Shown one piece after another: positions 5,071 to 10,020 of a stretch of DNA of 64,000 nt (position 1 is its first letter; each line of letters begins with the position of its first letter). The translations under genes and the position numbers were made by a program. Under the pieces are notes generated by a model. The model did no database searches, had not been told where the DNA came from, and saw nothing but the letters and a program-made list of their open reading frames with translations. Source of the DNA: Bradyrhizobium sp. SZCCHNS1050 (lineage in GTDB: Bacteria; Pseudomonadota; Alphaproteobacteria; Rhizobiales; Xanthobacteraceae); assembly GCF_032484785.1 (NCBI RefSeq), contig NZ_JAUETR010000001.1, positions 2,421,501-2,485,500 on the forward strand, in the 5' to 3' direction.

Positions 5071-7167
5071 TTACTTCGTCGTCAGCGCCGTCACCGGATG
5101 CCAATGATGATCCGCCCGCGTGCCTGCCAGGGGCCTGCAGCGCGCGATCATGACCTCGGCGGCGCGATCGCCGGGCTTGAGCGCAAGGACTGCTTCAAAC
5201 GCCGCGATGGCTGCCTCGAAGTGCTGCGCGCGATAGTCCTGAAGTCCGCACGCGTAGTGTGCGATCCAGCGCACGTCCTGCGCGGCGACATTCTCCGCAA
5301 GCCCGACCAGCTCGTGGACGCGCAGGCCCTCTTCGCGGCCATAGACGGCGATGCGGTCGATCTCGCGGGTGAGAAACGCATCGCCCGCCAGCCGCGCGGT
5401 GCCCTCGCCGATCAGGATATCGGTGCCGTAGCTCTTGTTGGCGCCCTCCAGCCGGCTCGCGACGTTCACGGCATCGCCGATCACCGTATAGTTGAGACGC
5501 ACCTCGGAGCCGATGTTGCCGACCAGCATGGGGCCGGAGTTGATGCCGATGCGGATGGCGAGCGGCCGGCCGTCATCGTCGCACAGGCCGCTGGCCTCCA
5601 CCGCGTCTCGGCACGCCAGCGCGGCGCGGCAGCACAGAACCGCATGATCCGGCTGCGCGGCCGGCGCGCCCCAGAACGCCATCACCGCATCGCCGATGAA
5701 TTTGTCGATGGTGCCGCCGTGGTCGACGATGACGGTCGAGATCAGGTCGAGATAGCGCGACAGCAGCGGCACGACACGGTCGCCCATGCGCTCCGACAAC
5801 CCGGTGAAGCCGGCGATGTCGATGAACATCACGCTGAGCTCCTGGACATGGCCGCCCGGCCTGGCGTCGACGCCCTGCCGCAGCAATTGCCGGACGAGAT
5901 CGGCGGGAATGAACTTGCCGAATGACGACAGCCCGCCGGCCATGTCATGAATGGCGCCGGACAGGCTCGCGATCTCGCGAAGCCGCGAGGGATGACGTCG
6001 CACCTGCTCGAGCGCGAAGGCCTCGACGTGACGCAGTTCGGCCACCACACGCCCGAGCGGGGCGGCGATGACGGCACGCGCCAGCGCGGCGGAGGCCAGC
6101 GCCGCGAGCACGGCGCCGATGCCGAGACCGATGATCACGCGCCGCAGCGCCGCGTCGACCGGACCGAGAAACTCCGCTTCCGGAATCACCGTGACCAGCG
6201 ACCAGCCGGGAAACGGCAGCGCCGTGCGCGCGACCTCGAAGGCGCCGTCGCCCAATAGCACGCGCCCGCGCCAGGCCTCGTCGCCTTCGCGCGAGGACCG
6301 CATCGCCTGCTGCGCGATCGGCAGCAGCGGCTGGCGGCCCTGCCCGGCATTGACCTCGTCGGCGGTCTCGTCGGGCGCCGCGACCACGCCGCCATCAAGC
6401 GCCAGGATGAAGGCGGTGCCGGTGCGGCCGACCTGAAGCTGGGCGAGAAAGCGCGAGATGCGCGCGTGCTCGATGATGATGGCGAGCACGCCCTGCCGCT
6501 CCTGATAGACATCGATCGGGCCGGCCAGCGCGATCGCCGGGCGATCTCCGCTCGGATGATGATCGACGCTGAACCAGCGCGGTTCGTCCGCTGCGAGGCT
6601 CTCCTTGAACCAGGGCTGGTCGGCGACCTTGAAACGGGTCGGCTCGAAGCGGCGTGTCGCGAACTCGATGTCGCCGGGCACGACGTCGTATTCATCGACA
6701 CGGCGCTGGCCGGGATGATCGGTCAGGGAGATCTCCATCATCTCCAGGCGCCGGTCGCCGAGCTTGTGGGCGGCGAAGAACGAGCCGTCCGGCCAGCCGA
6801 ACGCCGCCGATGAGATCGTCGCCTGCGACTGCAGCTGCGACAGGAACACGAATTCGCGCTTGTCCGCCTCGCGGGTGTCGAGCACGTTCTGCAGGAACAG
6901 CGTGCGGATGGCGGTGTGCGCGGCGCGCGCCTCGCTGACGATCGCGCTCACCTCCTTGCGCACGGCGCCCGCGATCTGCGCGTTGATGGTGCTCGCGAGC
7001 TGACGGCTGATCGCCTCCGAGGTGCGCCACCACAACAGACTCGAGGCAAGGGCCGTCAGCAGGATCGCGGTCAGCACCAGGGCCGACACGGCGAAGCGGA
7101 TGCTGACGGTCAACCGCTCGTCGGCGGCGCCTCGGCGCGGCACTCGGCTCTTTGCGCTCGCCATCAT
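5071..7167 (-). CDS. Membrane adenylate/guanylate cyclase with Cache-like sensor and C-terminal TPR-like tail
   Basis: 698 residues from ATG 7167 (GGAG upstream). Membrane span 1 is about residues 23-46. A Cache-like periplasmic region follows (about 50-335), then span 2 (343-366), a HAMP-like linker and a class III cyclase domain (about 443-620). Metal aspartates are visible at D450 (FIDIAGF) and D493 (FIGDAVMAF). K489 and D565 (YTVIGDAVN) fit adenine recognition, so ATP is the likely substrate. The tail (about 640-680, HFEAAIAAFEAVLALKPGD) resembles one TPR unit. The ORF extends upstream to 7341, but that stretch lacks domain character. It is convergent with gntR and divergent from the bufferin operon. 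Confidence 0.88.
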   Translation of the reverse strand: MMASAKSRVPRRGAADERLTVSIRFAVSALVLTAILLTALASSLLWWRTSEAISRQLASTINAQIAGAVRKEVSAIVSEARAAHTAIRTLFLQNVLDTREADKREFVFLSQLQSQATISSAAFGWPDGSFFAAHKLGDRRLEMMEISLTDHPGQRRVDEYDVVPGDIEFATRRFEPTRFKVADQPWFKESLAADEPRWFSVDHHPSGDRPAIALAGPIDVYQERQGVLAIIIEHARISRFLAQLQVGRTGTAFILALDGGVVAAPDETADEVNAGQGRQPLLPIAQQAMRSSREGDEAWRGRVLLGDGAFEVARTALPFPGWSLVTVIPEAEFLGPVDAALRRVIIGLGIGAVLAALASAALARAVIAAPLGRVVAELRHVEAFALEQVRRHPSRLREIASLSGAIHDMAGGLSSFGKFIPADLVRQLLRQGVDARPGGHVQELSVMFIDIAGFTGLSERMGDRVVPLLSRYLDLISTVIVDHGGTIDKFIGDAVMAFWGAPAAQPDHAVLCCRAALACRDAVEASGLCDDDGRPLAIRIGINSGPMLVGNIGSEVRLNYTVIGDAVNVASRLEGANKSYGTDILIGEGTARLAGDAFLTREIDRIAVYGREEGLRVHELVGLAENVAAQDVRWIAHYACGLQDYRAQHFEAAIAAFEAVLALKPGDRAAEVMIARCRPLAGTRADHHWHPVTALTTK

Positions 7168-7347
7168 CGCAGGTGGATCTCCGATCGGACCGATCGGCGC
7201 GCGGGGCGGCACGCGAGCGGGAGCGGCCAGACTGCGCTCCGATGGCGTGAACCGCCAATGCCGGCCGGCTAAGTCGATGATGCCTGCAAAGCATTGGCAC
7301 TTCGAGTCGGCTTGCGCTCGACTAGGGCAGCTCCCAAGCACGCAATA

Positions 7348-7369
7348 CCGCTCACAGGGTCGTGAGCGG
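7348..7369. repeat. Inverted repeat just upstream of the bufferin promoter
   Basis: Perfect 8-bp arms CCGCTCAC / GTGAGCGG around a 6-base centre. It ends 9 bp before the GTAACA element of the candidate promoter. It could be an operator or simply a hairpin; no T-run follows, so it is not an obvious terminator. Confidence 0.5.
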
Positions 7370-7378
7370 AGTCGCCGC

Positions 7379-7404
7379 GTAACATTGTCGTGGCGGCGGG
7401 CGAA
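7379..7404 (+). promoter_or_regulatory. Candidate ECF (sigma-F type) promoter of the bufferin operon
   Basis: GTAACA at 7379-7384, a 16-base spacer, and CGAA at 7401-7404, 52 bp before the bufA start. As I recall it, the Caulobacter sigma-F motif is GTAACC-N16-CGAA, in front of heavy-metal-responsive genes that include the homologous operon. The match is 9 of 10 bases with identical spacing. No sigma-factor gene is in this window. Confidence 0.6.
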
Positions 7405-7455
7405 GGAGAGATGCGCGTCGCCAAGCGAGCGACGCAGAACACGAGAGGAATTGTC

Positions 7456-7761
7456 ATGTCCGCCAAGAGAACCGTCACCACGCTGGCGCTCGCCGGCGCC
7501 GTCAGCACCGCGCTTGCAAGCCTCGCAATGGCCGGGCCACTGACCAAGGCCGAAGCGGAAGCCGCAATGGCCGCCAAGAAGGAGAAATGCTTCGGCGTTG
7601 CCCTGAAGGGCCAGAACGATTGCGCCGCCGGTCCCGGCACGACCTGCCAGGGTACCTCAACGATCGACTTCCAGGGCAACGCGTGGAAATTCGTCCAGGG
7701 CGGCACCTGCACCAGCATCGACGTCCCCGGCGGCCGCAAGGGCTCGCTCAAGCCGATCTGA
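7456..7761 (+). CDS. bufA: Bufferin precursor, DUF2282 family (BufA1-type RiPP peptide)
   Basis: 101 residues with a Sec signal peptide (hydrophobic about 8-24, cleavage after AMA26). Four cysteines are present at C45, C56, C64 and C85, in the DUF2282 pattern KCFGVA...NDC...CQGTS...GGTC. In characterised bufferins the cysteines are modified by the DUF692 enzyme, and the exported peptide binds copper in the periplasm. Here all three partner genes follow directly. ATG 7456 is chosen over 7390 because GAGGAA precedes it and the signal peptide starts there. The family assignment is strong; metal specificity is inference. Confidence 0.9.
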
Positions 7762-7800
7762 TCGCTCTCGTTCACCCCAAGCGGAAAGCGGAGACGCAGC

Positions 7801-8721
7801 ATGCGCACCGATGCCCCCCCTGCACCGGGCCCCACCATGCCGCTTCGCTTTCCGCCACCTCTCGGCGGCGTCGCCGGGACCAGCTTCAAGCCGTCGCACC
7901 TGGCCGCCATCCTGGCCGAGGCGCCGCGGCCCGGCTTCTTCGAGGTCCATGCCGAGAACTACATGGGCGCCGGCGGTCCGCCACACCATCAGCTCGAGGC
8001 GATCCGCAGGGATCATCCGCTGTCGATCCACGGCGTCTGCATGTCGATCGGCGGCCCGCAGCCGCTCGATCGCGACCACCTCGCGCGCTTCCGCAAGCTC
8101 GTCGCCCGCTATCAGCCGAGCCTCGTCTCCGAGCATCTTGCATGGTCGACGCACGATGCGACGTTCTTCAACGACCTGCTGCCATTGCCCTACACGGCCG
8201 CCACGCTGGCACGGGTCTGCGACCATATCGATGAGGTGCAGACCGCGATCCGCCGGCCGATCCTGCTGGAAAATCCGTCGACCTACGTCGCCTTTCACGA
8301 CTCGACGATGAGCGAGACCGACTTCATCCGCGCCATCGTCCGCCGCACCGGCTGCGGGCTCCTGCTCGACCTCAACAACGTGTTCGTCTCCGCGATCAAT
8401 CATGGCTTCTCGCCACAGGACTATCTGGCCGACGTTCCGCTCGCCGCTGTCGGCGAGATCCATCTCGCCGGTCACGCCGTGCAGGCCGACGATGAAGGCG
8501 AGCCGCTGCTGATCGACAGCCATGACGGCCCCGTCGCCTATGATGTGTGGGCCCTGTTCGCCAGCGTGGTCGCGCGCAACGGTCCGATGCCGACGCTGAT
8601 CGAATGGGACAGCAACATTCCGGATTGGCCGGTGCTGAAGGCAGAGGCCGCGGCCGCGCAGGCGATTCTCGATGACCACGCACCCGACTGCTCGCAAGAG
8701 GTGCGCGATGCCGCAGCCTGA
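7801..8721 (+). CDS. bufB: DUF692 multinuclear non-heme iron oxidative enzyme (MNIO), bufferin-modifying
   Basis: 306 residues, TIM-barrel DUF692 family. Candidate metal ligands are spread as in MNIO enzymes: H77 (SIHGV), E111 (SEHLAW), E157 (LLENPS), D190 (LLLDLNN), H221/H225 (EIHLAGH), D239/H241 (IDSHDG) and E268 (LIEWDS). The enzyme is expected to oxidise precursor cysteines, for example to thiooxazoles, using a mixed-valent iron cluster. A GGAG motif precedes ATG 7801. The gene lies 39 bp after bufA and overlaps bufC by 14 bp. Confidence 0.93.
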
Positions 8722-9490
8722 GCATATGTCCGACTATGCCGCTCAGTTCGCCGCGGCGCTGCTGACGCCGGATCGCGCGACGCCTGTCGCCGTCAGGGGT
8801 CCGCTGGCCAAGGCGGCCGGGCGCCGGTTCAACGTCTACCGCAACAACGTCACGGTCAGCCTGATCGAGTCGCTCATCGCGATCTATCCGGCGGTGCAGC
8901 GCATCACCGGGCCCGACTTCTTCCGCGCGATGGCGCGGGCGCATGTACGCGAAACGCCGCCGACGTCGCCGCTGCTCGTTGACTATGGACGCGACTTCCC
9001 CGCTTTCATCGCAGCTTACGAGCACGCTCGGACGATGCCGTTCCTGACGGACGTCGCACAGATCGAGCGGGCCTGGCTCGACGCCTATCACGCGGCAGAC
9101 GCCGCGCCGCTCGACGGTGCCACGCTGGCGACGGTGCCGCCCGAGCGGTTGCCCGAGCTGCGCTTCGCCGTTCATCCCGCCACCCGCATCGTGCGCTCGG
9201 ATTTCGCGGCGGTGACGATCTTCTCGGCCAATCGCGGCGATGCGCCGGTGCCGCGCATCGACGGCTCGGTCCCGGAGGACGCGCTGATCACGCGGCCCGC
9301 GTTCGACGTCGCCGTGCGCCACCTGCCGCGGGGCGGCGCGATCTTCGCAAGCCTGCTGATCACGCGGCAGCCGCTCGGCGTGGCCGCGGAAGCCGCGTTC
9401 GAGGCAGCGCCGGAGTTCGATCTCGCCACCAACATTGCCGGCCTGATCGAGGCCGGCGCCTTCACGGACATCAGTTTCGAGGACGCATGA
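8708..9490 (+). CDS. bufC: DUF2063 family protein, MNIO partner (BufC-type)
   Basis: 260 residues. The N-terminal region (about 8-100) is the DUF2063 fold, seen as [18 protein letters not shown] and [15 protein letters not shown]. The C-terminal half is the usual variable partner domain. In related systems this protein recruits the precursor to the DUF692 enzyme, and the two form a complex. It starts inside the end of bufB (AGAGGTG upstream of ATG 8708) and its stop overlaps the bufD start, so the operon is translationally coupled throughout. Confidence 0.9.
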
Positions 9491-10020
9491 TGACGACGGA
9501 CCACTCCATGGCGCCGACCGCGACACTGTCGCTGCTTTCCCTCGTCGGCCAGACTGTGCGGCTGCTGCAGAGCGCGACCCCGCTCACCCTGGTCCAGCTC
9601 GTCACTCGCATTGCGCTGGCGGTGCCGTTCTGGCGCTCGGGCATTCTCAAATGGGACGGCTTTCTCAGGCTGAGCGACACCGCCGTGACGCTGTTCAGCG
9701 ACGAGTTCATGCTGCATCTGCCTGGCGGGCCATACCACTTTCCCATGCCGACGGTGATGGCGTTCCTGTCGGGCTGCGGCGAGGTCACCTTCCCCGTCCT
9801 GCTCATTCTCGGCCTCGGTACCCGCTTCGCGGCACTCGGCCTGCTGTTCATGACATGCATCGTCGAGCTCACGGTGCCCGACGGCTGGCCGATCCATCTG
9901 ACCTGGGCCGCGATGGCGCTGGGCCTCATTGCCCATGGCGGCGGAAAGATCTCGCTCGATCACATCCTCGGCGGGCTGTTCGGCGGCGCGCACCAGGGCA
10001 GCGCGAGCCGTGGCATGTAG
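9487..10020 (+). CDS. bufD: DoxX family membrane protein (BufD-type)
   Basis: 177 residues with about four membrane spans. It has the DoxX pattern of a start helix ending in RIALAVPFWRSGILKW, and later FLSGCGEVTFPVLLILGLGTRFAALGLL. DoxX proteins are frequent last genes of DUF2282-DUF692-DUF2063 operons; their role there is unclear, perhaps redox or metal handling in the inner membrane. The ATG overlaps the bufC stop. The last 61 bp overlap the 3' end of the convergent gene at 9960-11552. Confidence 0.88.
   Translation: MMTTDHSMAPTATLSLLSLVGQTVRLLQSATPLTLVQLVTRIALAVPFWRSGILKWDGFLRLSDTAVTLFSDEFMLHLPGGPYHFPMPTVMAFLSGCGEVTFPVLLILGLGTRFAALGLLFMTCIVELTVPDGWPIHLTWAAMALGLIAHGGGKISLDHILGGLFGGAHQGSASRGM

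Follow-up and report, generated by a model that had tools for sequence, protein, structure and literature searches.

A complete Buf1 bufferin operon in Bradyrhizobium with a composite palindrome-ECF16 promoter and a linked adenylate cyclase

The stretch of DNA analysed here, a 64-kb window of the genome (7.62 Mb, six contigs) of the root-nodule bacterium Bradyrhizobium sp. SZCCHNS1050, contains at 7456-10020 what is, by its defining sequence features, an ordinary and complete Buf1 bufferin cluster, the product of which is probably a small copper-binding peptide. The regulatory setting of this operon, combining a sigma factor predicted to act in trans, a composite operator-promoter and a linked cyclase, is not described in the literature covered by our searches, which makes the operon a variant worth testing. 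We consider it likely that the locus as a whole represents an EcfF-controlled Buf1 operon for a copper-buffering peptide, with a further factor acting at the palindrome and the cyclase as a linked signalling partner.

The four genes lie on the forward strand with all frames intact: bufA (7456-7761; 101 aa) for a DUF2282 (Buf1) precursor (PF10048, E 7e-22, above cut-off), bufB (7801-8721; 306 aa) for an MNIO (DUF692) bufferin maturase (PF05114, E 1e-106), bufC (8708-9490; 260 aa) for a DUF2063 partner protein (PF09836, E 1e-24) and doxX (9487-10020; 177 aa) for a DoxX-family membrane protein (PF07681, E 1e-16). Because bufB and bufC overlap by 14 bp and bufC and doxX by 4 bp, a single transcript is likely. 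Against NCBIfam profiles, the bufB product scores 382.6 bits with MNIO_BufB (cut-off 310) and falls below the cut-offs of the HvfB, ApyH, ChrH and MbnB models, and the bufABC order with an MNIO and its DUF2063 partner is the one required for a Buf1 cluster. BufA starts with a hydrophobic stretch (residues 7-25) followed by an AMA/GP-type cleavage motif, the latter judged by eye. The initial annotation of this DNA had described four coupled genes forming a complete bufferin operon, and its coordinates hold, as do the overlapping frames and the family assignments; family matches, gene order and conserved residues all support its reading. Its start at 7348 coincides with the point where the palindrome discussed below begins, 108 bp before bufA, but the annotation made no mention of an ECF16 promoter, of another complete operon in the genome or of the linked cyclase. 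Its remark that such systems are little studied in rhizobia is partly justified, but RpoE7 has already been reported to target the Sinorhizobium meliloti orthologue, SMb20530-20527.

Conservation among relatives is extensive. A search of genome contigs gave at least 572 confirmed BufB matches, of which the best 80 were taken; among these, the closest named relative for BufB is Bradyrhizobium aeschynomenes (94%), all 80 have BufC-like and DoxX-like frames beside BufB, and 79 have a BufA-like frame as well, the exception (L084) being a locus whose available DNA starts inside bufB. Co-occurrence of the four genes among relatives is far beyond chance. The BufA cysteines 45, 56, 64 and 85, numbered correctly in the initial annotation, are invariant in all 81 aligned rows (the window, the second operon of the same genome and 79 relatives). 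The candidate iron ligands of the DUF692 enzyme are likewise 99-100% conserved in 82 rows, which take in the window and the second operon: H112, E157, D190, N193, H221, D239, H241 and E268 at 100% and H77 at 99%. Residues N193, D239 and H241 probably correspond to N175, D242 and H244 of HvfB (site 3), a correspondence drawn via 3bww, with HvfB itself outside the alignment; each of the three is reported as essential in HvfB (PMC13419390). BufB appears to possess the candidate iron ligands, including the site-3 Asn, Asp and His.

With Caulobacter Buf1 (CC3254-3257; PMC3511200, PMC12452194) the cluster shares the DUF2282-MNIO-DUF2063-DoxX order, the four cysteines, a signal-peptide-like N-terminus on the precursor and an ECF16-type promoter; it differs in having no adjacent sigma-NrsF pair (about 6 kb on each side) and in carrying a divergent dCache cyclase and the upstream palindrome. 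Under the published Buf1 rule, the two central cysteines are modified while the first and last form a disulphide (PMC12452194), which would assign modification to C56 and C64 and the disulphide to C45 and C85. Caulobacter Buf1 binds copper and aids growth in excess copper (PMC12452194), and 5-thiooxazole peptides related to bufferins bind Cu (PMC13097082); by homology to the Caulobacter peptide, the window BufA may be expected to be both modified and copper-binding. We propose that BufB, as an iron enzyme, and BufC would convert C56 and C64 to 5-thiooxazoles in the cytoplasm, that modified BufA would then be exported via Sec and close its C45-C85 disulphide, and that the periplasmic peptide would sequester copper during metal or oxidant stress, with DoxX perhaps acting at the membrane in an accessory step.

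Upstream of bufA, a pattern scan based on published consensus sequences (PMC3511200, PMC3420878) located a putative ECF16-type promoter, GTAACA-N16-CGAA, on the forward strand (7379-7404), with 51 bp between it and the bufA ATG. It is one base off GTAACC-N16-CGAA, the ECF16 promoter of PMC3511200, and fits the B. japonicum EcfF consensus (PMC3420878) less exactly: that consensus has N14-15 followed by CGT/CGA, with C or T before the CG, whereas the window has N16-CGAA preceded by G. The site nonetheless combines GTAAC with CGA/CGT at a spacing assignable to the EcfF (ECF16) regulon, of which it is a candidate member. Within the 64-kb window it is the sole occurrence of GTAAC-N16/17-CGAA, a pattern found at 24 sites on both strands of the 7.6-Mb genome (112 for the reversed pattern). 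Upstream of the -35 element lies a palindrome, CCGCTCAC-N6-GTGAGCGG (7348-7369), containing TCAC-N6-GTGA, the core of which is conserved as TCAC-N6-GT[GT]. Across 80 operons (the window and the 79 relatives with a bufA frame from the best 80 of at least 572 BufB matches), GTAAC-N15-17-CGAA precedes bufA in 70, and in all 70 the palindrome core ends 11-14 bp upstream of the promoter, with the full TCAC-N6-GTGA in 39; the core occurs in 0.5% of random 45-bp stretches from the same loci and is still present in 5 of the 10 operons without a strict promoter. The palindrome may be the site of a second factor of the EcfF regulon. Text searches for 'palindrom' returned zero matches in PMC12452194, PMC3420878, PMC8315932 and PMC5413113, and by the literature searches made the palindrome-ECF16 composite before a bufferin operon is new. 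In many of the Bradyrhizobium loci L061-L104, a second palindrome, GCGCAC-N5-GTGCGC, stands upstream of the -35 element at a distance of about 57 bp; it is absent from the window.

No sigma-NrsF pair was found within about 6 kb on either side of the window operon. Since no sigma factor adjoins it, control in trans by EcfF-OsrA is predicted, EcfF (an ECF16 sigma factor) being expected to transcribe bufABC-doxX from 7379-7404. The gene ecfF is encoded together with its anti-sigma gene osrA about 2.2 Mb away, and the anti-sigma factor (212 aa) has cysteines solely at 129 and 179, as does OsrA. The palindrome core joined to GTAAC occurs seven times in the source genome, with a proper -10 element at four sites: before ecfF-osrA, a gene for a DUF1223 CxxC protein, the bufA operon and an msrA gene whose product has a signal-like N-terminus. 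The DUF1223 gene (L191 1501-2294, at 389.6 kb of contig C1) is itself a predicted EcfF target by virtue of its composite promoter. Composite sites read in 13 genomes (n = 22) precede msrA in 10 cases, bufA in 2 and nothing recognised in 10, and all 30 Bradyrhizobium ecfF loci retrieved, that of the source genome included, have the composite in the ecfF promoter. The source genome thereby shares with the B. japonicum EcfF-OsrA regulon (PMC3420878) the promoter type, the msrA and ecfF-osrA members and OsrA Cys 129/179. In that organism ecfF-osrA and three MsrA genes are reported as EcfF-dependent, and the printed EcfF target table holds no bufferin gene (PMC3420878). An NrsF gene lies near the operon in 30 of 47 loci outside Bradyrhizobium versus 0 of 33 within the genus, in the stretches available for the best 80 of at least 572 matches; outside these 33 loci, one Bradyrhizobium genome (G032, L180) has a sigma factor and NrsF adjoining the operon. 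Because all 60 Bradyrhizobium genomes give an OsrA homologue match, whether they carry the operon or not, co-occurrence adds nothing to the case for EcfF.

The published S. meliloti system offers a close comparison: SMb20530-20527, with RpoE7-EcfR7 (PMC6180224), is orthologous to the window operon, and its printed promoter is one base off that of an Ensifer locus (L134) which carries the palindrome. In S. meliloti the sigma and anti-sigma genes stand divergently beside the operon, whereas in the window the cyclase occupies that place (PMC6180224).

MNIO and DUF2282 searches each gave exactly two matches in the source genome; those outside the window operon belong to a second complete buf operon (L007 4937-8892; 4645-4649 kb of contig C1), which is followed by its own ECF sigma factor and NrsF. 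Its BufB is 62% identical to that of the window, and its NrsF has cysteines at 29, 110 and 130 and none near 179, the position reported as needed by OsrA. After this NrsF gene, the stretch L007 8922-9340 has a further ECF16 promoter-like site that stands before a degenerate frame; by eye, the frame resembles a 203-aa gene of locus L189.

The divergent neighbour of the window operon is a class III adenylate cyclase gene with a periplasmic dCache-like sensor (5071-7167, reverse strand), its ATG at 7167 picked by eye in a frame whose longest form starts at 7341. The product is predicted to cross the membrane twice and joins a periplasmic part resembling dCache to an intact class III catalytic domain, in which D453, D496, K492, D568, N571 and R575 (numbered on the reverse-strand frame 5074-7176) are 100% conserved in 58 rows; we take these to be the catalytic Asp pair, the adenine-selecting Lys/Asp and the Asn/Arg. 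The periplasmic part scores below the cut-off of the Pfam dCache_1 model (37.9 of 45); its structural model (pLDDT 79.5) has ligand-binding dCache domains as top Foldseek matches (E 2e-11), and as modelled it adopts a dCache fold.

The cyclase is tied to bufferin clusters, with counter-examples, and this association is new by the literature searches made. Among 60 Bradyrhizobium genomes, 41 have an MNIO match (E 1e-40); 38 of these also have the cyclase (at least 53% identity), compared with 0 of the 19 others (Fisher 7.5e-13, phylogeny ignored). The MNIO-positive exceptions are G009, G032 and G043. In 37 of the 38, cyclase and MNIO share a contig, 0.55-7.8 kb apart. Within the genus the cyclase lies divergent to the window-type Buf1 operon, co-directional with another Buf1 operon (G025 and G053) or beside a Buf2 cluster (mostly divergent, convergent in G006); the single Buf2-cluster precursor tested scores above the NCBIfam BufA2 cut-off. 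At E 1e-120, the cyclase was found in 13 of 397 genomes of the order: nine of the genus, of which five have a Buf1 or Buf2 MNIO nearby and four the DsbD-like and DoxX genes of a Buf2 cluster; one of a distant family, where it lies downstream of a Buf1 operon; and three of family f14, where no MNIO was found in the 0.1-9 kb available on each side. On plasmids (20 records with the cyclase, 9 examined), another, complete buf operon is followed by the cyclase in 7 of 7 Rhizobium/Sinorhizobium cases examined (of 17), the two annotated loci having an FAD oxidoreductase in between, whereas no bufferin cluster was found in the DNA available for the two Ruegeria cases examined (of 3).

Buf2-type clusters in Bradyrhizobium (L170-L173, L176-L179, L183-L187 and L222-L226) comprise, with varied completeness, genes for a DsbD-like membrane protein, DoxX, a thioredoxin-like protein, one or more BufA2 precursors, MNIO, DUF2063, a creatininase-like protein and the cyclase; seven scanned Buf2 loci (besides L235) have a promoter-like GTAAC...CGTA/CGAA without the palindrome. 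Many Bradyrhizobium loci (L063, L064, L066, L067 and others) also have a second cyclase-domain frame beside the first, at about 1200-2600; none was seen in the window.

In the literature searched, mentions of a cyclase beside bufferin-type genes are sparse. In the bufferin survey PMC12452194, a full-text search found neither cAMP nor guanylate, and 'cyclase' only in one reference title. Our literature searches for an adenylate cyclase with DUF692 or bufferin yielded one relevant mention, the Legionella GIG-like cluster H4, where GIG homologues have an adenylate cyclase gene among them (PMC5413113), and one unrelated paper (PMC8273931); the Legionella gene is mentioned there in passing.

Several other explanations of these patterns can be envisioned. 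The window operon could be read by the sigma factor of the second buf operon instead of EcfF, as GTAAC-N17-CGAA, the window spacing, recurs at that operon and after its NrsF, while the ecfF site of the source genome is shorter than the window site by one base; ECF16 cross-talk is conceivable too, since deleting osrA in B. japonicum led to an increase in the paralogue ecfS as well (PMC3420878). We nevertheless judge this quite unlikely: both sites at the second operon read GTAACC and lack the palindrome, whereas the window, like ecfF, has GTAACA with the palindrome, and 32 of 33 rows for NrsF proteins encoded beside the operon in relatives group with the source genome's OsrA, separated from the NrsF of the second operon (SH-aLRT 100). 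The cyclase, for its part, could be a mere passenger of an old, inherited neighbourhood. Linkage inside one genus is phylogenetically non-independent, each linked cyclase class forms its own clade following the MNIO class in a 35-row tree, and unlinked homologues exist in f14 and Ruegeria. This is a possibility that we take seriously yet doubt, as the cyclase accompanies two precursor families (Buf1 and Buf2) in several arrangements and was found in none of the 19 genomes lacking an MNIO match (E 1e-40), and as an adenylate cyclase gene is reported in the Legionella GIG-like cluster (PMC5413113). As a linked signalling partner, the cyclase may instead read a periplasmic ligand.

The main job of the peptide could also be defence against oxidant or sulphur stress, as a sacrificial thiol-like buffer acting beside methionine sulphoxide reductase, with copper secondary. 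The composite promoter is indeed common to the operon, msrA, ecfF and the CxxC DUF1223 gene; H2O2, singlet oxygen or HOCl trigger other ECF16 systems, and a DoxX homologue in another context has been linked to oxidative or sulphur stress (PMC12452194). The copper phenotype of Caulobacter Buf1 (PMC12452194) and Cu binding by 5-thiooxazole peptides (PMC13097082) weigh against this proposal, which we deem rather unlikely. That the operon is a relic, or that BufA is exported unmodified, seems very improbable given four intact frames, invariant ligands and cysteines, and the retained promoter and palindrome, even though some genomes have precursor genes without an MNIO.

The copper-buffering operon under EcfF control that we favour would be linked by its composite promoter to a characterised Bradyrhizobium oxidative-stress regulon, while the recurrent cyclase hints at a second signal input and provides a handle on what triggers bufferins in soil and nodule bacteria. 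The S. meliloti SMb20530 promoter reportedly showed no induction by H2O2 (1 mM), Cd or chromate (PMC6180224), and Caulobacter sigma-F genes are reported to respond to Cr and Cd and not to ROS-generating agents (PMC3511200). The signal may therefore be something other than ROS, with a metal, an HOCl-like oxidant or another thiol stress as candidates. We further advance, tentatively and at somewhat below even probability, a two-layer rhizobial bufferin system in which the EcfF-OsrA promoter and a dedicated palindrome operator are joined by a dedicated dCache cyclase that would sense the state of the periplasm (metal, small ligand or bufferin itself) and signal via cAMP. If true, this would be the first cyclic-nucleotide sensor wired to the bufferin peptide class. 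BufB homologues also occur in the plasmid collection, on 346 records that include 73 from Escherichia; the Escherichia matches listed mostly have about 59% identity.
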